Both the position numbers and the translations under genes were made by a program. A DNA stretch of 64,000 bases from Bacteroidota bacterium (GTDB lineage: Bacteria > Bacteroidota > Bacteroidia > UKL13-3), in the NCBI GenBank assembly GCA_027491355.1, contig JAIXWI010000030.1, forward strand, positions 124,001 to 188,000, given 5' to 3'. This document shows positions 28,913-54,481 of this stretch, one piece after another (within the stretch, counting starts at the first letter, position 1; every line of letters begins with the position of its first letter). The notes under the pieces were generated by a model. That model was not told where the DNA came from. It searched no databases and was given only the letters and a program-made list of their open reading frames with translations.

Positions 28913-30081
28913 GATAGCATAGATTTAGCAAGTTGTACGTTGATACTTTCTCTTTTGAATGTTTGGATAAAATGGCTACGTTTTTCTTTTTGATAAGTAT
29001 AGGCATGTAACTGAGCCACCATTGCGTCCACATTACAAGGTTTGAACAATATTAAATTGCTGACATTCTGTTTTAAAAACTGTGCCGCATAACCACCTAC
29101 TCCTGCAATAATTGGCTTTTGTTGAGCTGCCAATTCAAATATTTTAGAAGGTAAAACCTTTTCAAATGCGGGGTAATCGTTTAAATGGATGAAATAAAAA
29201 TCTGCATCCAGATAGGCTTTCAATAACTCTTTACGCTGAATGGGTTTGTGAATGGTAATTGTATCAACCTGGTACCTTTTAATGTAGTCTGTTAACAAAT
29301 CCTTGCAACCACCATCACCATATATTACAAATTGATAATCGGGGCCGAGTTTTGCGGCGGCGGCGGGTAAAATTTCGTGTAAACCTTGACCTTCACCAAT
29401 ATTACCAGCGTACAAAACTGTATAAGGCTTAGTAACAATTTTAGTGTCTGATTCGCCCAATTCCATAAACACATCATCTACTCCATGTGAGAAATAAGTA
29501 TAGTTAGGTTTTGAATATTTTTTTTTGAAATAGGTCTCAAAACCTTGTGAAATTAAATTAATATGTGACGCATCCTTAAAACTATACTTTTCAATGCTTT
29601 CAAGCAAAGGAATCAATATCCATTTTACTGGCTTTGGTAAGCTGACATCTTTCATGGTATCTGAAAAAATATCTCTGATATCTAAATAAAGCTTGCAATG
29701 ATTTGTGTTAGACAAAAGTCTTGCTAGAAATGCTGTAAACAATCTTGATGAGGATGCTATTACCAAGTCATATTTTTTGCCTTTGGTGTACTTTTTTACA
29801 AATTTATAATAGGCATAAAACGATAGTATTTGGTCTAAAAATCCACTTTTATGTTTAGGTATTTGAGCCCTTCGGATAGTGAGATTACCGATCTTTTCAA
29901 ATTCTGCTGCTCCAACTTCAAAACTTTTATACCTGTTTGGCAGCGTTGTCAATAATTCAATGCTGGTATTATGCTCGGCAGCTTGCCTAGACAACTCATA
30001 AACCAAGGGTGAATTGCGGAAAGAACCAGCACACAAATCGGGTTCAAAATAAAAACTGAGGTACAAAATATTCCTGCTCAT
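28897..30081 (-). CDS. GT4-family glycosyltransferase (WbuB-like)
   Basis: This 394-residue GT-B enzyme transfers a sugar from a nucleotide donor to a lipid-linked acceptor on the cytoplasmic face. The N-terminus Y-L-S-F-Y-F-E-P-D-L-C-A-G-S-F-R resembles the WbuB group (FucNAc transferases). The C-terminal donor domain shows L-Y-A-G-N-I-G-E-G-Q-G, and the E-x7-E-like region reads P-S-K-I-F-E-L-A-A-Q-Q-K-P. It overlaps the heparinase-like gene by 4 bases (ATGA). The donor sugar is uncertain, though amino sugars made in this locus are natural candidates. Confidence 0.88.
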   Translation of the reverse strand: MSRNILYLSFYFEPDLCAGSFRNSPLVYELSRQAAEHNTSIELLTTLPNRYKSFEVGAAEFEKIGNLTIRRAQIPKHKSGFLDQILSFYAYYKFVKKYTKGKKYDLVIASSSRLFTAFLARLLSNTNHCKLYLDIRDIFSDTMKDVSLPKPVKWILIPLLESIEKYSFKDASHINLISQGFETYFKKKYSKPNYTYFSHGVDDVFMELGESDTKIVTKPYTVLYAGNIGEGQGLHEILPAAAAKLGPDYQFVIYGDGGCKDLLTDYIKRYQVDTITIHKPIQRKELLKAYLDADFYFIHLNDYPAFEKVLPSKIFELAAQQKPIIAGVGGYAAQFLKQNVSNLILFKPCNVDAMVAQLHAYTYQKEKRSHFIQTFKRESINVQLAKSMLSCLPK

Positions 30082-31679
30082 GATTTGATAGCAATTGTGG
30101 TTTTTAACTTCGTTTCGAAAAATACTTTTACCCTGAAAGCCTCTTGTCTCTTATTAAAAGCTAGGGCAAATTGATATGGTTCTATTTTAATTTCAGAGGC
30201 ACCTTCAAATTTTAAAACCCCTAATTCAGAACTGATCTGAAATGTTTGCTCATTCAACGTTGGAACAACTGTGGGATGAAAATGAAAATAAGCAATTACT
30301 GAATTTAATGCAGATTTAGCAGCTACTTCATCTATTATTTCAAGTTCATTGTTTAAAGAAAAACTTCTTTTAAAACGTTTGACTCCAAAATGTTGATACG
30401 CATTGTGGCTCAAGGTTAATGCGTGGCTTGACGAATTTACAATTGAAACCTGAGGTCTTTTCCCAACTCTAAAACCACCCCATACATCAGCTGTATTGGT
30501 ATGATTGACAACGACTACATTGTGTGCGGATGAACTTCTTTCTTCATTTCTTGTTTGACCAATTTGATAGGTAGAGGTTCCTGTTTCTACTAAAAAGGGT
30601 CGGTTTTTAACATAGCAAATAAAACCAGTAACATCAGCATGGGCATGACCTGGTTGATAGCTCGGTTCTATACCCATTGTATCTATAATTGTTTCAATTT
30701 CATTCGAACACATTTTTCTGTAACCAGAGCTAGACAATTGAATGCCAACAGAATGAATATTTAATTTTTGTGCGTAGTTGTACAGTTCATTTGGCAATGC
30801 ACTGATACCAGGAGCAGCATCATTGAACATGGGAATGTCTCCGTTGCTAAAACTTATTGCACTCAACCATCCCAACATCAGTGCAGCCTTTTCCATTAAA
30901 AACGTTCGAGTAGCATGCGTATCCAATGCCTTGTTTTTTTCTAATAGATTGATGCAATCCAATAAGCGTTCCAACAAAATACATTGGTACATTGCTGATC
31001 TTTCAAAGTGACCGCCATCTGATAAAATTTGCTCATTGAGTTCATTTAATAGCAAGCGTACTGATTCTTTATACAACAGTTTGTCGTTGGTTACTATTGC
31101 CCCCGCAAACAACGCAAATGCATTTTCTAGTAAATGATTACCTAATAAATGAAACTCTTTATTTTTTCTTACAAATTGAATTTGATTAAACAACAATGCT
31201 GTCAACATGGTGTTGTTTTGATTGGTCCTATGGATGAATTTAATCAGGTTAAAAATTCTTAATGAAGCTGGATATGGTTCATTTTTAAGGCGTCCGGCGC
31301 TTAACTCTAAATAAAAAGACTGTATGATGGATTGTGCAATTTCAGCTGAAATACCTACCTGATTGACACAATCTAAATACTGAAGATTGTAATTCCATAA
31401 TTTTCCAAATTCATTTTCATTCCAATTGATTTGCCCTATGAATGTTTTGGATTGATTCAGAAAATTAAATGTATTGGGGTGAATGTATTTTACAGATGGG
31501 GCAATGTAAGGAACTGCAAAAAAATCAGATTGCATGAGTACATGCTTGTTAGAAAATTCGACAGAATTGAACAGCCTAAAATAATTTTTACACCGATACC
31601 ATATCTGAAAAAACACTTGTTGAAATTTCAAGTAACGCGTGGTTTGAACCAATCTAATTATTTTGGTGATAGTACTCAA
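30078..31679 (-). CDS. Heparinase II/III-like (PL12-type) protein within the glycan locus
   Basis: This 533-residue protein combines an alpha-helical N-terminal part (about 1-310, with F-H-L-L-G-N-H-L-L-E-N-A and G-G-H-F-E-R-S-A-M-Y) and a beta-sandwich C-terminal part beginning near P-G-H-A-H-A-D (about 344-350), as in heparinase II/III-type lyases. The string E-T-G-T-S-T-Y and A-H-N-V-V follow. No signal peptide is seen, so it may act in the cytoplasm or have an unusual export route. Its start is a TTG at 31679, 7 bases after wecB; no nearby ATG exists. Similar proteins often stand beside bi-domain oxidoreductases in surface-glycan loci. Confidence 0.8.
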   Translation of the reverse strand: MSTITKIIRLVQTTRYLKFQQVFFQIWYRCKNYFRLFNSVEFSNKHVLMQSDFFAVPYIAPSVKYIHPNTFNFLNQSKTFIGQINWNENEFGKLWNYNLQYLDCVNQVGISAEIAQSIIQSFYLELSAGRLKNEPYPASLRIFNLIKFIHRTNQNNTMLTALLFNQIQFVRKNKEFHLLGNHLLENAFALFAGAIVTNDKLLYKESVRLLLNELNEQILSDGGHFERSAMYQCILLERLLDCINLLEKNKALDTHATRTFLMEKAALMLGWLSAISFSNGDIPMFNDAAPGISALPNELYNYAQKLNIHSVGIQLSSSGYRKMCSNEIETIIDTMGIEPSYQPGHAHADVTGFICYVKNRPFLVETGTSTYQIGQTRNEERSSSAHNVVVVNHTNTADVWGGFRVGKRPQVSIVNSSSHALTLSHNAYQHFGVKRFKRSFSLNNELEIIDEVAAKSALNSVIAYFHFHPTVVPTLNEQTFQISSELGVLKFEGASEIKIEPYQFALAFNKRQEAFRVKVFFETKLKTTIAIKS

Positions 31680-34921: not shown

Positions 34922-36844
34922 TTAGCCTATTTTTTTTCCATCTTTAAATTGAGTTAGCCAACTTTCAATAGCTAACATACTCCATATCGTAAATGAAGCA
35001 TCAATTTTTCCTTCTTTGTTATCTTTGATTAATTTTGTTACTTCATTGGGGTTAAAAATCCCTCTTTCTTTTACCTTATTTTCCGACAATCTATCAGCAA
35101 TTAACTCGTTCATGTCTTGTGATATCCATTGCCTCACAGGGCCAGCAAAACCAGCTTTGGGTCTGTAAATGAGCTCTCTTGGAAGGTATTTTTCTGCAAC
35201 TTTTTTTAAGATATACTTCGTAGTAGTACCATGCATTTTATACCTTGTAGGAATACGTGTACTAAAATTAACCAAATCCATGTCTAAAAATGGCACACGA
35301 CTTTCAACACCAACAGCCATACTCATTTTATCATTGTAGTTCATGTTATGATCTACTAAAAACGACTTCATCTCTAAATATAGCATTTGGTTCAACAAGC
35401 TTTTTTCATCTGGAATTGCTTTCAATAAATCAGACAATGTTTGAAGTGAATTGTAATTACCAATATGTTCTAATGAATCTGAGGTAAACAATTTATTTGC
35501 TGTATGTTGTGGGAGCCAAGAAAAATAGCCAAGCATTCTATTCAAAGGTGTATTTTCTATGTCAACAGATAACTTTTTTAAACGTCTATTGAAAGGTCTT
35601 TGAATGTCTAATCCTTCAGCATACAATTTGAGTAAATGTACAATCGGCTTTGGTATATTCTTGATCCATTTTTCAAGGTTAAGTGCTTGGTGTCTTCTAT
35701 ATCCGCTAAAAAGGTCATCACCACCTGCTCCACCTAATAGAACTTTAATTCCATTTTCTTTGGCTCCTTTAGCTATATGATATACATTGAGTGGCGCAGA
35801 ATCAGCCTGAGGTTCATCTAAATGCCAAATCATCTTATCAAAATCGGCCAATATATCTAATTTGGCATCGATGATGTTGAGTTTAAAATCTAGCTTTTTT
35901 GAAATTAATTTTGCGTAAAACAAATCATCAGAAAAGCCCTCTTTTTTCATGGCATTTTCACCTGAGTTAATGGTAAAGGCATTGATTTGTTGACTTGGAA
36001 AAACCTGTTGAGATATGGCTGCAATTAATGTAGAGTCTATTCCACCAGAAACAAAAAATCCTAGAGGTACATCACTCATCATTTGCCTTTCAAGTGCATC
36101 AAATAATTTTTGCTCAGTTAACAATACAAACTCATTTTCGTCATTAACCTGCATTCTGTAACCGTCGAATGGAATATCGTAAAATTGAACAATTTCAGAT
36201 TTAAATGTCTTTACATCAAGCGTAATAAAATGTCCTGGTAATAATTTTTGAATGTGCTTGAAAGGTGTTTTTTCTCCAGGACTCCATAGCAAAGTCACAT
36301 AATTCATCAATGCTTTGTGGTCAATTTCTTTGTCTACCTCTTCAAAGCAGATGATACTTTTTAATTCAGAGCCGAATAAAAACACATCGTCTTTCAAGTA
36401 TATATACAATGGTTTTACACCCATGTGATCTCTTGCCAAAAAGAGCTTTTGATTAGAGCGGTTATAAATACAAAATGCAAAAATACCATTGAGTTTGGTC
36501 AGAACTTTTTCACCAAATTCAATAAAACCATAGAGTAATGTTTCCGTATCACTATTGCCTTTGAATTTATAACCTTTGGCCAACAATTCTTTTCTTAACT
36601 GAAGGTGATTGTATATTTCTCCATTGAAAACTATCACAAAATTTCCAGTCTTGTCAAACATGGGTTGGTTACCATTTTCTGTCAAATCTAGAATGGCCAA
36701 ACGGGTATGAACCAAACCTACATTGTTTTCGATGAAATGACTTTGAGAATCAGGTCCTCTGTGAGCAATACTTGATTGCATCCGCTCAACTAAGTTCAGA
36801 TCTATACTTTTGTTCTTATTAGCAATTCCAGCAATTCCGCACAT
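34922..36844 (-). CDS. asnB: Asparagine synthase (glutamine-hydrolysing) family amidotransferase
   Basis: This 640-residue protein begins M-C-G-I-A-G-I, with catalytic Cys2 of the Ntn glutaminase domain, then A-H-R-G-P-D-S and F-N-G-E-I-Y-N. The synthetase domain has the PP-loop V-S-G-G-I-D-S-T (about 265-272) and later G-G-A-G-G-D-D-L-F-S-G. It therefore can hydrolyse glutamine and adenylate a carboxylate. In a glycan locus a homologue is likely to amidate a uronic-acid residue, as proposed for WbpS in Pseudomonas O-antigen, rather than make free asparagine. Its start overlaps nothing; its stop is 5 bases from the next gene, and the previous stop overlaps its start by one base (TAATG). Confidence 0.88.
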   Translation of the reverse strand: MCGIAGIANKNKSIDLNLVERMQSSIAHRGPDSQSHFIENNVGLVHTRLAILDLTENGNQPMFDKTGNFVIVFNGEIYNHLQLRKELLAKGYKFKGNSDTETLLYGFIEFGEKVLTKLNGIFAFCIYNRSNQKLFLARDHMGVKPLYIYLKDDVFLFGSELKSIICFEEVDKEIDHKALMNYVTLLWSPGEKTPFKHIQKLLPGHFITLDVKTFKSEIVQFYDIPFDGYRMQVNDENEFVLLTEQKLFDALERQMMSDVPLGFFVSGGIDSTLIAAISQQVFPSQQINAFTINSGENAMKKEGFSDDLFYAKLISKKLDFKLNIIDAKLDILADFDKMIWHLDEPQADSAPLNVYHIAKGAKENGIKVLLGGAGGDDLFSGYRRHQALNLEKWIKNIPKPIVHLLKLYAEGLDIQRPFNRRLKKLSVDIENTPLNRMLGYFSWLPQHTANKLFTSDSLEHIGNYNSLQTLSDLLKAIPDEKSLLNQMLYLEMKSFLVDHNMNYNDKMSMAVGVESRVPFLDMDLVNFSTRIPTRYKMHGTTTKYILKKVAEKYLPRELIYRPKAGFAGPVRQWISQDMNELIADRLSENKVKERGIFNPNEVTKLIKDNKEGKIDASFTIWSMLAIESWLTQFKDGKKIG

Positions 36845-41781: not shown

Positions 41782-43114
41782 ATTTCACCTCCTTTTCTAA
41801 CACCCCCAATTCATTCAAACTTTTAAATAACAATACGGCCATTAATACATAAAACTGAGCATACTTAAAATTTTCAAGCGGATCAGCAGTACTCTCAAAA
41901 TAAATTGAAGATGTTAAAATCATGAAGAATATCAATGGATGCGTTACCCATTTACTTACAACCTTGACATGTCTAAACTGCTTTAAAATGATAAAAATAA
42001 ATCCCAAATGAAAATAGAGTCCAATCAAACCTAGGTTTAAGAAAGTACCTAAAAATCCGTTGTCAGCAAAATCTTCAATAATTTTAGTATATCCTAAACC
42101 TACAAAAATAGAGGCTGGATTAGCATACTTCACAAAGTCATCAATCCTGCTTTGCCAAAACTCATCACGTCCAGCAACAGCCGTTACACTCTTGGTATCG
42201 TCATATTCCTCAACTGTTGAAATGATACGTCCTTGGATGAGGTCAGCGGCTAATAAAAAAACAAATAAAAATACTGTAGCTACTATGATACTGATTCCTT
42301 TGAATGTAACTTTAGTTTTATCTTTTTGATTCAAATACAAAAACAAGAGGGTATTAAAAACAAAAACAACAATAGCTGTTCTAGACCCAAAAACAGTAAA
42401 GATAGATATGAGCGAACCAAATAAAAAAACCAAACTAAAAATTGTAGTCATGAGTTTTTTAGAATACATAATGTTTGCAAATAAAATACTACTTACCATG
42501 GCATACAATATTGCGGACATGTTTGCATTGCCTGTAAAACCAACAGCTCTGTATGTAAACACCTCCCTTTCGAACGAATAAATGTATTCGTCAGATGCAA
42601 CAATACCTCCACCTAATACAGGTAAATAAGTATTTACAATAAAGTATTTAACATTAAACAAATCATAGAACTCAAAGTATACAAATGGCAAATACACAAT
42701 CAACATGATGACGAAAAAACGAATGAGTTTCTCGTAATCTTCTTTTGTCATTGTAATGTTGTTGACAACCATTAAAATCAAGGTAAATCTGAACCACCTG
42801 TAAAAATGGGCGAAAATTTGTGGTTTTATAGGAGCAGCTAAATATAGGTATTCAAATAAAGTTGATATGAATGCAATACTTCCCATTGCAATACCTAAAT
42901 TGTACAATACTTTGTATTCTTTGAAATTGGTGGTATCACGTAGTTGAGTTTTTGCCTGAAACATGAGCGCCAAAAACAACAGTAAATCAGAAAACCTAAA
43001 TGCATAGAAAGCCACATTGGTGGGTTGAAAGAAAACCACGAATATGAAAAATGCAATGAATTTCCACGTATTATAAAAACTCAATTCTGTTTCTGCTAGT
43101 TTATGCTGCTCCAT
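41768..43114 (-). CDS. O-antigen polymerase-like membrane protein (Wzy)
   Basis: This 448-residue integral membrane protein has around 10-12 hydrophobic segments and one large hydrophilic loop (about 295-345), with the string G-R-D-E-F-W. That topology, and its place directly after a flippase gene, fits the Wzy polymerase that joins lipid-linked repeat units in the periplasm. The sequence of Wzy proteins is poorly conserved, so the call rests on topology and context. It overlaps both neighbours (14 bases each). Confidence 0.75.
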   Translation of the reverse strand: MEQHKLAETELSFYNTWKFIAFFIFVVFFQPTNVAFYAFRFSDLLLFLALMFQAKTQLRDTTNFKEYKVLYNLGIAMGSIAFISTLFEYLYLAAPIKPQIFAHFYRWFRFTLILMVVNNITMTKEDYEKLIRFFVIMLIVYLPFVYFEFYDLFNVKYFIVNTYLPVLGGGIVASDEYIYSFEREVFTYRAVGFTGNANMSAILYAMVSSILFANIMYSKKLMTTIFSLVFLFGSLISIFTVFGSRTAIVVFVFNTLLFLYLNQKDKTKVTFKGISIIVATVFLFVFLLAADLIQGRIISTVEEYDDTKSVTAVAGRDEFWQSRIDDFVKYANPASIFVGLGYTKIIEDFADNGFLGTFLNLGLIGLYFHLGFIFIILKQFRHVKVVSKWVTHPLIFFMILTSSIYFESTADPLENFKYAQFYVLMAVLLFKSLNELGVLEKEVKYGKV

Positions 43115-44369
43115 GGAAATACTTTTTAGTTACAATTTTAAATGAAAACCATGAGGCTAAATAGGCCAGGGTACCTAATGTAATTTTAACATACAATGCA
43201 CCTTGCATGCCAAAATCAGCAACAACTATATAATACAATGGCAAAGAAATGAATAATAAAAACACTGAAATGTAAAAATTAAAATTAAAAGCTCCCAAAC
43301 CCATTATTGCTGTATCCTTGATATTGTTCATAAAATTGAATGTCCATGCAATGACCAATCCTTGAAAATAAAAACCTGATTGGTGGTACTTTCCTTTGAA
43401 AACAAAATCTACCATGAATGGGATTGCAAAATAAACAAAAACCAAGGTGATTAAAGATACCATGTGATTTAATTTATTGTAATGGCTATAGGTACTTTTC
43501 CACTTTTGATACTGATTGGAAATTCCGGCAAAATGCGGATAAGCAATTTGTTGGATGGTTTGAGGAATGACATTTAAAATTGATATCAGTGTAATAGCAA
43601 AAGCATATTGACCAAAAACACTTAAATCTAATACAAAATGATTGATAAATAAGATGTCTAAAGAAGAGTACAAAAAACCAATAAAATTTGTCATCAAGGC
43701 GAATTTAGACAGGTGCCATAATGACCCAAACTTTTTAAAAAACAATACTGGTTTTACCATGATTCTGCTTTCCCTTGGAAGCGAATAAAAAAGCAGAGCC
43801 AAAGAAAAAAAACCACCAATCAACACTCCCCATACATATCCATGTAACTGAAAAAAGTATGACATTCCAACTATTAAAACAACCGCTATAATTTTACTAA
43901 TACTTTGAAGCTTTGCATACATTTTAATTCTGTCTATACCTTGGTAGTATCCACCTAATAAACTCTGAATTGCCAGGGGGAAAAGAAACAACATATACAC
44001 AGGGAAAAGAGATTTGATAGCTACATCACTTGAAATAAAATTCATATAATTAGCAGCTGTTAAAAAGAGCCAAACCAGCACAAATACCAATGCTGTAACT
44101 ACGAATGAAACATACAAATAAGCACTTTTACCTTTGTCAGAATCTTGCTGAGTAGTTAATTTAACAATAGAAACGTTCATACCCAAGGCGCACATTGTTG
44201 TTGCTAATCCAACATATGTTTGCATGATTCTGATTGCACCTATATCAGACGGATTCAAAAACTTAGCAACAAATAACTGAGAAGCAAAACCAGCCAATAA
44301 AATGAGTCCATTTGCACCAAGCAAATGAAAAAATCCTTTTTCAAATACCTTTTTTACCTCAGCCCTCAT
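43101..44369 (-). CDS. Wzx-type polysaccharide flippase
   Basis: This 422-residue membrane protein has about 12 hydrophobic segments spread evenly and belongs to the MATE/PST (MOP) group that flips undecaprenyl-linked repeat units. The start M-R-A-E-V-K-K-V-F-E-K-G-F at 44369 is a normal short cytoplasmic N-terminus leading into TM1 with N-G-L-I-L-L-A-G-F; a frame-open start at 44447 would sit within the preceding gene. The string L-N-P-S-D-I-G-A-I-R is typical (L-x-P-x-D-x-G). It overlaps the Asn-synthase-like gene by 11 bases and Wzy by 14. Confidence 0.85.
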   Translation of the reverse strand: MRAEVKKVFEKGFFHLLGANGLILLAGFASQLFVAKFLNPSDIGAIRIMQTYVGLATTMCALGMNVSIVKLTTQQDSDKGKSAYLYVSFVVTALVFVLVWLFLTAANYMNFISSDVAIKSLFPVYMLFLFPLAIQSLLGGYYQGIDRIKMYAKLQSISKIIAVVLIVGMSYFFQLHGYVWGVLIGGFFSLALLFYSLPRESRIMVKPVLFFKKFGSLWHLSKFALMTNFIGFLYSSLDILFINHFVLDLSVFGQYAFAITLISILNVIPQTIQQIAYPHFAGISNQYQKWKSTYSHYNKLNHMVSLITLVFVYFAIPFMVDFVFKGKYHQSGFYFQGLVIAWTFNFMNNIKDTAIMGLGAFNFNFYISVFLLFISLPLYYIVVADFGMQGALYVKITLGTLAYLASWFSFKIVTKKYFHGAA

Positions 44370-46083
44370 GAATTTCTGGGAATAAAAGTTGATAAGCGTT
44401 GAAAAAATTAAAAACCAATAATTTTTCGGTGGTAGTTCCTTGCTCACTTAGGCATTTTAAATCCGATGCAAGTTGCTTGTTTTCTATCGTTTCAAATTGA
44501 TAAGGCCTCAGCAATAATGTGCTCAATTTTGGATTTAGTTCAAACCATTTTTGAACTGGAACTGCCACTTTATCTTTTTTCCCTAAAATTATTCTGATTC
44601 TATTTTGTATACGTGCTGCTAGTAATTTGTATTCATTAGATGTGGGTAAGGCATCATATTTCCAAGGATACTGATTTACCATTTTGTGCTTCAAGTTCAT
44701 CCAATCTATGGTTAAATTACCATTGAACCTGAATTTAGGAGCTATGGAAAATGCATAGGATGCAAATTCAGGCTCCATATAGGTATACACACTTGAAGTG
44801 AATGGCTCTGTCATCCAAGTACCATTGTGAATAGCATTGAAACCACGGTTATACAAAGCAAAGAGTTCATCGTTAGCATAGCGCTTTACAATGACATCTA
44901 ATTCTGTTTGTATACGATCAATGTATGTATTTGAAACACCCCATCTCTGAGCATGAACAGCTTCATGGCATGTATTTTTTAGATAACCACCTTTACTACT
45001 TTCAGCCAAAATGCCGTTGTGTGTTAAGCCAAAATGCTCAAAGTTTAATTGTTGATTGGCTAATAAAGTTTGAGCCGCACCAAAATAGTAAACAGAACAA
45101 TTGTTCAAAATCAATGGCAGTTTACTGTGTTGTAAATAGGAACCATCGCCTAATTTTATGATAAAGTGTAAATGCCCTAAGTCATTGGTAATTGTTCTTG
45201 CTGTTAATTCATCGCTCGATTGGTCTTGTCCAAAAGTAAGGTTAGTTTGATTTTTGTAACCTAATTCACTTGCTAGCATGACATTCAATCTTGAATCTAA
45301 ACCACCACTGAGATGTACCAAGTGCTTGTAACCATTTTGAAGGTCTTTTTGGTATTCTAATTGGATTGAACGCAAAAACAATGTATCTAATGTTTCATAA
45401 ACAGCATTGGAAAGATGGTTAATTTTTACTTCATTGGTGTATTTGAAATATTGATTTAAATGTGAACCTGAAATCGGATTCACATTGAATGTTCGGCCTG
45501 GCTCAAGCTTTTTAATTTCCTGAACCAAAGTCTGGTCAGCTAATAAATAACCAAAGGTAATGAACTGGTAGGCGGCAACTGTGTTTAGTGAGGTGGGTAT
45601 TTGTAAGAAAGTGAGCAAATCTTTTACAAAAAAAACAGAAGATGAAAATATAAAAACTGCTTCATTTTCAAAATAGAAAAATGGTTTAGAACCTGTTTGG
45701 TCGGTTACCAATGTTAATGACTGTTCCAGCTCATTGAAATAAAAAGACTGAAAAGTTCCTTTTATACCCGTTAAATAATCACCTATATTATTGGTTTGAG
45801 CTGCCTTTGTTATGGATTTTAGCTGTTCAGGCTTGATCCAATTTTCAGCGCTGGTATCTTCCGCTAAATTGACCCCATCAAATCCAAATACATTGGCATT
45901 GTTTTGAAACAACCCTTTGTCTTTTTTGAATTTATTATTCGAATACCATGCAACTCTGAATTTTGGACAAACTATTTCGTGTTGGTATGGAAACAATTCA
46001 TTCTGTGTAGGGCTGAATTTGAATGCCTCTAATTTTTCTTTGTAAGTTGTCGACTTGATGATATATCCACTAAATCCGCTCAT
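44359..46083 (-). CDS. Asparagine synthase-like protein lacking the glutaminase cysteine
   Basis: This 574-residue protein keeps the synthetase PP-loop L-S-G-G-L-D-S-R (about 258-265), but its N-terminus reads M-S-G-F-S-G-Y, with Ser in place of catalytic Cys2. The remainder of the Ntn domain is still recognisable (D-Q-T-G-S-K-P-F-F-Y, about 128-137). It should not hydrolyse glutamine by the usual route, so it may use free ammonia or another amine, or act on a different nucleophile, as beta-lactam synthetase-like relatives do. It is placed between a glycosyltransferase and Wzx, which suggests glycan modification. The substrate is unknown. Confidence 0.82.
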   Translation of the reverse strand: MSGFSGYIIKSTTYKEKLEAFKFSPTQNELFPYQHEIVCPKFRVAWYSNNKFKKDKGLFQNNANVFGFDGVNLAEDTSAENWIKPEQLKSITKAAQTNNIGDYLTGIKGTFQSFYFNELEQSLTLVTDQTGSKPFFYFENEAVFIFSSSVFFVKDLLTFLQIPTSLNTVAAYQFITFGYLLADQTLVQEIKKLEPGRTFNVNPISGSHLNQYFKYTNEVKINHLSNAVYETLDTLFLRSIQLEYQKDLQNGYKHLVHLSGGLDSRLNVMLASELGYKNQTNLTFGQDQSSDELTARTITNDLGHLHFIIKLGDGSYLQHSKLPLILNNCSVYYFGAAQTLLANQQLNFEHFGLTHNGILAESSKGGYLKNTCHEAVHAQRWGVSNTYIDRIQTELDVIVKRYANDELFALYNRGFNAIHNGTWMTEPFTSSVYTYMEPEFASYAFSIAPKFRFNGNLTIDWMNLKHKMVNQYPWKYDALPTSNEYKLLAARIQNRIRIILGKKDKVAVPVQKWFELNPKLSTLLLRPYQFETIENKQLASDLKCLSEQGTTTEKLLVFNFFNAYQLLFPEIHEG

Positions 46084-47250: not shown

Positions 47251-48380
47251 TTTGACGAATTAAAAAGTTCAGAAATGTATTGATGGTACAATTGTGCTGT
47301 ACCGGAAGCGGAGCGCTCATGAACATTTTTTTTACTGATTGCACCATGTTGGTCTATCAATGATGGATTCAATAAATAATTGGCCAAAGCCTTTTTCATG
47401 GTCGTTAAATGCAATGGTTCTATGTATCCATTTACTCCATTCTCTAGGTATTCAGATACATTTAAAATTTGATCACTGATAACAACCCCCATGCCAGAAG
47501 CCATTCCTTCTATGAGCGTATTGGGTCCGTTAGAGTTTTTAGCAGGTATAAACAATACATCTGCATGCTTATAAATCAGGTGTAAATCGTTCCAATTTTT
47601 AATGCCATCAATGAATTGAATTTTATTTGCTAACCCTTTTACTGTAATCAAATCTTCACATTCCTTTCTCATTGATCCATGTGCATTCATGCGCATGGTA
47701 ACTTGATGAAAATCTTGAATCAATAATGAAAATACCTCAATAGCGAAAAGTGGATTGTATGCGTCTTCCAATCGACCTGGAAATAAAATTAACAAATTCT
47801 CTCCAACTGTTTTATTGCGTTTTTCATGTTGCAAATGCATGTCTATGTCTTGTGGATACCTTGTTAACCTAACTTTAGAAGCAGGGTAATGATAAAGTTC
47901 TATAAACTGATTCACTACATTTGGCCCCATGGCAAATAACCGATCCATGGGTCTAAAAAACATGAGTGTGAATCGCCTCAAGGCCCTTTTTATCTGAAAC
48001 AAAAAAGGATGTATAGCAAACCTATTGAGCTCTAGTGTTTCTGTATAAAATATTACCTTTTTACCATTGATTTTGCTCCACAACAAAACCAATAAATGCA
48101 TAGGAATGAAAAAACCACCCATGATAATGATATCTGGATTGAATTCATTTATTTTTTTAAACACCCTAAAATTGAAATAACCAAAAAATCGGATGTTTTT
48201 AGAGCCATTTAATATTTCGCAATTTTGGCCCAATGGTATTTTCCAAAATTGAGGTCTGTCTTTTTCTAGGTGCACATAAAACCAAAACTTAGATTGGTAA
48301 TAAGTTTGTAATGCTTCACAAAACTTTACCTGATAAGGAGCGGCCATATTGCTTAGAAATAAAAGTTTGGGCTGGCTCAT
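47247..48380 (-). CDS. GT4-family glycosyltransferase
   Basis: This 377-residue GT-B enzyme has L-L-I-L-F-P-G-R-L-E-D-A-Y-N-P at the domain border (about 204-218) and the donor-side motif P-N-T-L-I-E-G-M-A-S-G-M-G-V-V, typical of GT4. The N-terminus (L-L-F-L-S-N-M-A-A-P-Y-Q) is normal for the family. Its start overlaps the ATP-grasp stop by 4 bases. Donor and acceptor are unknown. Confidence 0.88.
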   Translation of the reverse strand: MSQPKLLFLSNMAAPYQVKFCEALQTYYQSKFWFYVHLEKDRPQFWKIPLGQNCEILNGSKNIRFFGYFNFRVFKKINEFNPDIIIMGGFFIPMHLLVLLWSKINGKKVIFYTETLELNRFAIHPFLFQIKRALRRFTLMFFRPMDRLFAMGPNVVNQFIELYHYPASKVRLTRYPQDIDMHLQHEKRNKTVGENLLILFPGRLEDAYNPLFAIEVFSLLIQDFHQVTMRMNAHGSMRKECEDLITVKGLANKIQFIDGIKNWNDLHLIYKHADVLFIPAKNSNGPNTLIEGMASGMGVVISDQILNVSEYLENGVNGYIEPLHLTTMKKALANYLLNPSLIDQHGAISKKNVHERSASGTAQLYHQYISELFNSSK

Positions 48381-49393
48381 TTTTGTTTGTGTAATGAAAT
48401 TCCTTTGGCAATGACTGCACCGTATTCTATGGCAATATCTGCAGCTGAAGGTTGCTCATCATTGAGCCATTTATGGTAGAGTTCAGGCACATTTAATCCT
48501 GACAAATGTGAAAACGGATATCCCCCTCCAAAGCGCGGGTTTAAATCGATTAAATAGACTTCACCATTTGCTGTTAAAATAAAATCAGCATCTAGAAGTC
48601 CTATGTGTTTGGTTGAGGCAGAAATTTCCTCGGCTACCATTTGTAATTGTTTGTTTTCAACAACTTCAGCCATGTCTGTTTCTCCAGCTCGCATGGCCAA
48701 TTTCTTTTTAACCAAAGCAAAGAAAAAGTTTCCATTAAAATCGTTAACTATGTCGATGCCGTACTCCTGCCCTTTAGCCATTTGCTGAATGAGCATTTGA
48801 TTTTTTTGATGACTAGGTACAGGGTCTTGTAAAAAAGATTCTCCTAATTGTGACTGTAAATGATTGAAGGTATTATTGAGTGACTCAAGGTTTTCTACTA
48901 CACTGGTTGCAATTGAACCCGTTCCCCATCTTGGTTTAACAATTAGAGGAAATTGAATAGCTCCTTCATCTAATGCGCTTAGCACATCTTTTAAAGTTGT
49001 AAAGGTTTTAGGCACCTTGATTGATGTTAAATTGGAGAATTGAGCATAGGCCAATTTATCAAAACAGTTTTCAATTGTTTCAGGAGATGAGACAACGATG
49101 GTGGTTCCAATTTTTTTGAATTGTTCAGTTTCTTTTGATAACACACTCAAGTCCATATCAAACAGCGGAACAATTAATTGAATGTCATTTTTTTGACAAA
49201 TGTCTAACAAAAAGGGTATGTATGCATCGCTTTTAATAGGGGGAGATACAAAAGCTTGGTCTGCCTCAAACATGCCAGAGGTTTGCTTGATACTATTGGA
49301 GGCATAAAGTTTACCGCTAAAACTTTCCCTAAAAAAAGGGATCATATAGTTTCTTCTTCCAATACTCGTAAACAAGACATTGAGTTTATCCAT
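48377..49393 (-). CDS. ATP-grasp ligase (carbamoyl-phosphate-synthase-like domain)
   Basis: This 338-residue ATP-grasp protein has an N-terminal pre-ATP-grasp region (L-F-T-S-I-G-R-R-N-Y), the nucleotide-binding loop F-P-L-I-V-K-P-R-W-G-T-G-S (about 149-161), and the metal-binding end D-L-N-P-R-F-G-G-G-Y-P. These enzymes activate a carboxylate as acyl phosphate and join it to an amine. Lying directly after a VioA-like 4-aminosugar transaminase gene (8-base overlap), it may couple an amino or carboxylic acid to the new amino group. That substrate is inference. Confidence 0.82.
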   Translation of the reverse strand: MDKLNVLFTSIGRRNYMIPFFRESFSGKLYASNSIKQTSGMFEADQAFVSPPIKSDAYIPFLLDICQKNDIQLIVPLFDMDLSVLSKETEQFKKIGTTIVVSSPETIENCFDKLAYAQFSNLTSIKVPKTFTTLKDVLSALDEGAIQFPLIVKPRWGTGSIATSVVENLESLNNTFNHLQSQLGESFLQDPVPSHQKNQMLIQQMAKGQEYGIDIVNDFNGNFFFALVKKKLAMRAGETDMAEVVENKQLQMVAEEISASTKHIGLLDADFILTANGEVYLIDLNPRFGGGYPFSHLSGLNVPELYHKWLNDEQPSAADIAIEYGAVIAKGISLHKQK

Positions 49394-53971: not shown

Positions 53972-54481
53972 ATGTCTGGCTCTTATAAATTTGTTATCTA
54001 CTTTTTGTTGTGCTTTGTGGGCTTGAACATTGCCTATCATTTTTTGTTCATCAAACAAGGCAATGAGCTTGATTTTTTTACAAATTTCATAGCAAAAATT
54101 ACTGCCAATTTGTATGGCTTACCTACCCAATTGAACCCACTTAAACCGGGTATTCAAATCATTTATAAAGGAACACCCCTAGTCAATATCATGGAAGGTT
54201 GCAATGGTTTGGTTGTATGGTTTACTTTGCTGTCATTCGTAGTTGCATTTGGAGGTAAAGCAAAACAATTTTTAGGGTATGTACCATTGAGTTTTGTGCT
54301 ATTACAAGTTGGTAACATTCTGCGCATTTTGGCATTGGTGCATATTAAAATAAACAATCCTAATTCCTTTTCATTTTTTCATTCCTATGCATTCCCTGCA
54401 ATTTTATATGCATTTGCTTTTGGCTTGATGTTGATTTGGATTAAATTACAGGCAAGAAATACAGATGAAAAAGCCAGCTAA
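53972..54481 (+). CDS. xrtF: Exosortase family protein XrtF
   Basis: This 169-residue polytopic inner-membrane protein has about five hydrophobic segments. The exosortase catalytic triad is visible: Cys77 in M-E-G-C-N-G-L (the E-x-C-N/S-G motif), Arg118 in N-I-L-R-I-L and His137 in F-F-H-S-Y-A-F-P. It is much shorter than PEP-CTERM exosortases and matches the compact XrtF type of Bacteroidota. Exosortases recognise C-terminal signals of exported proteins and process or transfer them; the XrtF target signal is not established to my knowledge. The next gene overlaps by 17 bases. Confidence 0.9.
   Translation: MSGSYKFVIYFLLCFVGLNIAYHFLFIKQGNELDFFTNFIAKITANLYGLPTQLNPLKPGIQIIYKGTPLVNIMEGCNGLVVWFTLLSFVVAFGGKAKQFLGYVPLSFVLLQVGNILRILALVHIKINNPNSFSFFHSYAFPAILYAFAFGLMLIWIKLQARNTDEKAS

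Follow-up and report, generated by a model that had tools for sequence, protein, structure and literature searches.

The locus

The window, the whole 64,000-nucleotide stretch of Bacteroidota DNA analysed here, carries on its minus strand a gene for an asparagine synthase (AsnB)-like protein that lacks the catalytic cysteine at position 2 (Cys2). Three genes are central to what follows:

44359..46083, minus strand: Cys2-less AsnB-like protein of 574 amino acids with an ATG start, beginning MSGFSG and carrying SGGLDSR (open reading frame and translation)
43101..44369, minus strand: MOP-superfamily (Wzx-type) polysaccharide flippase adjoining the AsnB-like gene (PF13440/PF01943)
34922-36844, minus strand: canonical AsnB (MCGIAG), the sole PF00733 match in the whole genome, in the same cluster and 7.5 kb away

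The AsnB-like gene and the flippase gene share their cluster with GT4-like glycosyltransferases, DegT-type aminotransferases, an ATP-grasp protein and a weak Wzy_C/oligosaccharide-polymerase-like protein, and the region around the pair is a predicted Wzx/Wzy-type polysaccharide locus. A glycan substrate, possibly a uronic acid, had been suggested in the preliminary description. The gene does lie within a polysaccharide cluster, but neither a uronic acid nor any other glycan emerged as a substrate from any result.

Several neighbours deserve mention in their own right. The ATP-grasp protein (48377-49393, minus strand) resembles the PRK12767 'carbamoyl phosphate synthase-like' family at 313 of 316 bits, just below the cut-off, and the flippase pair of a related locus (L030) likewise has ATP-grasp and DegT genes nearby. 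At the edge of the cluster, 53972-54481 (plus strand) encodes a short membrane protein that resembles the exosortase family, with a match short of the cut-off (PF09721, E 3e-4). A heparinase II/III-like protein is encoded within the biosynthetic cluster (30078-31679, minus strand) and would suit a uronic-acid-containing polymer. The canonical AsnB may act in glycan formation, in the synthesis of asparagine or in both.

Translation of the AsnB-like gene gives MSGFSGYIIK as the N-terminus and HLSGGLDSRLNV as the PP-loop, in agreement with the preliminary description, which had reported an MSGFSG start without Cys2 and an intact SGGLDSR. MSGFSG aligns directly to the MCGIAG of the canonical AsnB at 34922-36844. 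A start-site error concealing Cys2, a check set beforehand, is ruled out: the codons leading into the gene are ACC AAA TAA AAT ACA ATG, and the in-frame TAA two codons 5' of the ATG leaves no possible upstream start with Cys2. MSGFSG is also identical in both same-genus orthologues found (L039 and L101). The window protein and L039 share 71% amino acid identity, and their genes differ at 122, 88 and 296 first, second and third codon positions, respectively, with a dN of 0.20 and saturated dS. This third-position-biased pattern is that of a maintained protein rather than a sequencing artefact or a pseudogene, and within the genus the gene is under purifying selection.

A distinct clade of AsnB-like proteins

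Searches of Bacteroidota genomes retrieved 19 further relatives, which together with the window protein make a clade of 20. In a maximum-likelihood tree all 20 fall in one clade (support 100/98), apart from 44 canonical AsnBs. A large gap separates the two groups in a class-wide profile scan, where clade members score at least 448 bits and canonical AsnBs at most 136 bits; the window protein itself scores 712 bits with the clade profile and 109 bits with the canonical AsnB profile. As defined here, the clade is monophyletic, lacks Cys2, carries SGGLD[SA]R and His355 and is encoded beside a MOP flippase; the window protein shows each of these features. An AsnB-like protein encoded on the minus strand at the end of another contig (L019), which also lacks Cys2 (MPGIFGFS...) and is cut by the contig end, apparently lies outside the clade.

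The clade is rare and patchy in Bacteroidota, because only 9 of the 395 genomes in the first phylum-wide draw carried a member (two in the class of the window, seven in other classes), counts that are lower bounds since the large scans scored the best three candidates per genome. A re-scan of the phylum from another centre returned no new clade members, a contig-level search for related loci only one distant MCGI-type AsnB, and a plasmid search only distant haloarchaeal and canonical matches. Subgroups within the clade diverge fast, with 21-30% identity between them.

General family models recognise the protein poorly. Its only Pfam match is a weak one to PF13537 (GATase_7), covering residues 94-150 only, and the same scan does not reach PF00733. 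With the NCBIfam models it falls far below every cut-off, including that of TIGR01536 (61 bits against a curated 267.1). A lasso peptide cyclase can be set aside, the NF033535 score being 50.5 bits against a cut-off of 525 and the neighbours being glycan genes. Queried alone with phmmer, the protein had no meaningful match in the PDB; AsnB and the hydroxyamidotransferase TsnB9 were reached there only with the clade profile and by fold search.

The whole chain can nonetheless be placed in the AsnB fold. Profile-profile alignment of the clade with canonical AsnB runs over the full length, and an AlphaFold2 model built from a nine-sequence alignment (pTM 0.83, mean pLDDT 76) finds full-length matches with Foldseek and VIA-align 2 to TsnB9, human ASNS, E. 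coli AsnB, beta-lactam synthetase and carbapenam synthetase (Z 22-26). Residues 359-380 and 500-508 of the model, including the expected lysine loop, are of low confidence. The best matches to this predicted fold are near-tied and do not discriminate between chemistries.

The glutaminase half

The first of the two domains contains the site from which the catalytic cysteine has been lost:

45448..46083, minus strand: about residues 1-212, apparently the remnant of an N-terminal glutaminase (Ntn) domain (weak PF13537 match, residue losses, full-length fold match to AsnB)
46078..46083, minus strand: Met1-Ser2 (ATG AGC), site of the lost catalytic Cys (translation, clade alignment)

None of the 20 clade members aligns a cysteine at position 2, against 44 of 44 canonical AsnBs. 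Where the MxG strand is present the clade has Ser, Ala or Pro at this position; elsewhere the strand is missing or unalignable. The loss extends to RGPD, Asp53, Gln60-Pro61, Asn74, Glu76, Asp99, Glu101 and Arg138 (numbered as in the canonical AsnB of the window), among which the glutamine-binding and oxyanion residues RGPD, Asn74 and Asp99 are invariant or nearly so in the 44 canonical AsnBs. The loss of glutaminase function proposed from Cys2 alone is thus upheld on broader grounds, the whole site having gone.

The special role that had been considered for Ser2 finds no such backing. Serine can act as an Ntn nucleophile in other families, and its conservation at position 2 within the genus of the window would suit a working nucleophile, the protein still being a glutaminase or another amidohydrolase. 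This is very improbable, since relatives carry Ala or Pro or have no MxG strand, so that Ser2 is not a fixed nucleophile across the 20-member clade, and Asn74, Asp99 and RGPD have been lost as well. From the alignment, Ser2 appears to be one outcome of a relaxed site rather than a replacement nucleophile.

The synthetase half

The second domain has kept one motif and changed around it:

44377..45408, minus strand: about residues 226-569, the ATP-pyrophosphatase-like (synthetase) domain (aligned profile to profile with canonical AsnB at probability 100; fold matches)
45289..45309, minus strand: PP-loop SGGLDSR, residues 259-265, with clade-specific Arg265 (SGGLD[SA]R in 20/20 clade members)
45001..45021, minus strand: residues 355-361, the active-site loop HNGILAE, whose His355 is specific to the clade (clade alignment)

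Across the clade this half keeps the Ser-Gly-Gly-x-Asp of the PP-loop, whose Asp and Ser are retained in at least 18 of the 20 members, together with Gly357. It has lost the acidic residue after the loop Asp (E377), the RxKxGF motif, Pro345 and Arg516. The RxKxGF lysine loop (Lys449 of E. coli AsnB) is missing clade-wide as a motif; a Lys aligns there in the genus of the window only, within the low-confidence loop of the model. Other residues are new, and invariant or nearly so: Arg265, directly following the PP-loop, Asp291, Gly335, His355, directly before the active-site loop, Arg413, Gly421, Trp461, Trp474 and Lys554. The counterpart of that loop in most relatives is HxGQIGD or HTGMLGD, and in the genus of the window it has degenerated further, from HTGQIGD to HNGILAE.

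The 'kept adenylating domain' of the preliminary description therefore holds for the PP-loop, but not for the lysine-loop motif, E377, the GVExRxPFLD arginine and other residues. Our reading of this residue pattern is that the ATP site would have been kept and the acceptor chemistry changed. Given the loss of the RxKxGF loop, E377 and R516, adenylation itself may be lost.

Ammonia-dependent NAD synthetases use free ammonia instead of glutamine. An amidase-type synthetase that similarly amidated a carboxylate, for example of a uronic acid, would fit a protein whose glutaminase site is gone and whose PP-loop is retained, and it gains from the presence of uronamides in glycans of Bacteroidota that have asnB among the corresponding cluster genes (PMC6120980). 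Such an activity is nevertheless unlikely: the canonical synthetase residues are lost, and the cluster also encodes, 7.5 kb away, a canonical glutamine-using AsnB that could supply amidation.

Pairing with a Wzx-type flippase

The strongest signal, and the main clue, is a strict pairing with a flippase that is absent from the earlier reading. In 20 of 20 clade members a MOP flippase gene directly adjoins the AsnB-like gene on the same strand, upstream in 15 and downstream in the genus of the window (three members) and in two others; Pfam confirms the identity of the flippase for subgroup representatives. The paired genes either overlap or almost abut. In the window the AsnB-like gene contains the likely flippase ATG, at 44369, 11 nt from its end, and stop and start codons of the paired genes overlap by one base in L031, L032, L034 and L035. 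Of 40 canonical AsnBs given the same treatment, none had a flippase gene next to it or up to three genes away, and 4 had one somewhere in the fetched region. One-sided Fisher tests of adjacency, which ignore phylogeny, give 2e-16 for all members and 5e-12 for 12 non-redundant ones. The distance matrices of the AsnB-like proteins and their flippases correlate with r=0.91 over the 12 non-redundant pairs (0 of 10,000 permutations as high), a value to which shared species history contributes in part. The pairing holds across flippases sharing only 13-19% identity. Adjacency of this kind indicates a shared pathway, not a complex. No description of flippase-linked or Cys-less AsnB-like glycan proteins was found in the open-licence literature.

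These observations also bear on whether the gene is simply decaying without a function, as the 21-30% identity between subgroups and the degenerate active-site loop in the genus of the window might suggest. That is hardly credible for a gene with third-position-biased substitutions, a dN of 0.20 with saturated dS and open frames throughout, in a clade that keeps the PP-loop in 20 of 20 members and the adjacent flippase in 20 of 20 (0 of 40 controls).

Proposed function

Why would a flippase be paired so strictly with an AsnB-fold protein? Directly supported are the loss of the glutaminase site, the retention of the PP-loop, the predicted fold, monophyly, purifying selection within the genus and the invariant flippase pairing. 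The best reading of these, put forward tentatively from the residue pattern and gene order, is that of a glutamine-independent, AMP-forming AsnB-fold enzyme acting with the flippase on the lipid-linked repeat unit. The glutaminase half would be a structural relic, and the ATP-pyrophosphatase half retains the PP-loop SGGLDSR; the full-length protein is one of a distinct clade inherited together with a Wzx-type flippase. Arg265, His355 and the other clade-specific residues would replace the lost AsnB synthetase residues. The target would be the repeat unit on its undecaprenyl carrier, or else an acyl or amino-acyl group destined for that unit, and the reaction would take place at the cytoplasmic face, immediately before flipping or while it proceeds. 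We infer, as most likely, that the protein uses ATP, forms AMP, acts on a lipid-linked glycan and is coupled to the flippase.

Alternatively, the protein may be a pseudoenzyme or ATP-binding regulator that forms no covalent product; as an accessory or quality-control subunit it would bind nucleotide and, in addition, either the flippase or the flippase substrate. Catalytic residues have gone from both domains while the PP-loop is retained, and the strict pairing persists across flippases only 13-19% identical, which makes this a serious contender, if a somewhat doubtful one. Against it stand the Asp and Ser of the PP-loop, present in at least 18 of 20 members, and the invariant new residues around the site, all of which would suggest catalysis. 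Modification of the repeat unit is slightly favoured over an accessory subunit because the PP-loop and the new surrounding residues are invariant; the pseudoenzyme reading comes close behind, and amidation with free ammonia is possible and less supported.

More generally, the two genes could form a module in which an AsnB-fold ATP-binding protein, bereft of glutaminase and canonical synthetase residues, is the dedicated partner of a Wzx-type flippase, with either ATP-driven, glutamine-independent modification of the lipid-linked unit as a flipping checkpoint or ATP gating of the flippase; we offer this with much the same reserve as the enzymatic reading. The way in which a Wzx flippase selects its own repeat unit is not yet well understood, and an ATP-binding partner strictly beside the flippase (20/20) would offer a testable handle on it. 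The clade is also a caution on annotation: a glycan-cluster gene labelled 'asparagine synthase' can code for a protein wholly unable to use glutamine.

Comparison with known systems

With AsnB/ASNS (TIGR01536, PF13537 + PF00733) the window protein shares the SGGxDS PP-loop and the two-domain fold (1ct9 and 6gq3, Z about 26); it differs in having neither Cys2 nor the glutaminase residues and in the loss of the lysine-loop motif and of further synthetase residues. TsnB9 (7ylz) is the best PDB match by sequence profile and by fold; unlike the clade, it retains MCG and aligns as a canonical amidotransferase.

Loss of Cys2 in AsnB-fold proteins is already known, whereas for the flippase-linked clade no description was found in the open-licence literature. 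Two plasmid-borne haloarchaeal AsnB-like proteins, L102 (6701-8530) and L103 (6722-8641), have MVG for MCG and, like the clade, an SGGxDSR PP-loop, but they lie outside the supported clade on very long branches and have no adjacent flippase. The L102 region does contain a flippase gene, some 3 kb downstream of the AsnB-like one.

In beta-lactam and carbapenam synthetases, which have the AsnB fold, the glutaminase half is non-functional and has no Cys. Their hallmarks are a Tyr/Glu catalytic dyad and an equivalent of Lys443. At the position of AsnB Glu348 the window protein has Ile and its relatives Gln or Met. The fold match (1jgt, 1q15) reaches Z 22-25, and an AsnB fold without Cys2 is common to both. 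Beta-lactam synthetases are N-type ATP pyrophosphatases that carry out intramolecular amidation (PMC6594144). The setting differs: there an antibiotic cluster, here a polysaccharide locus with a flippase.
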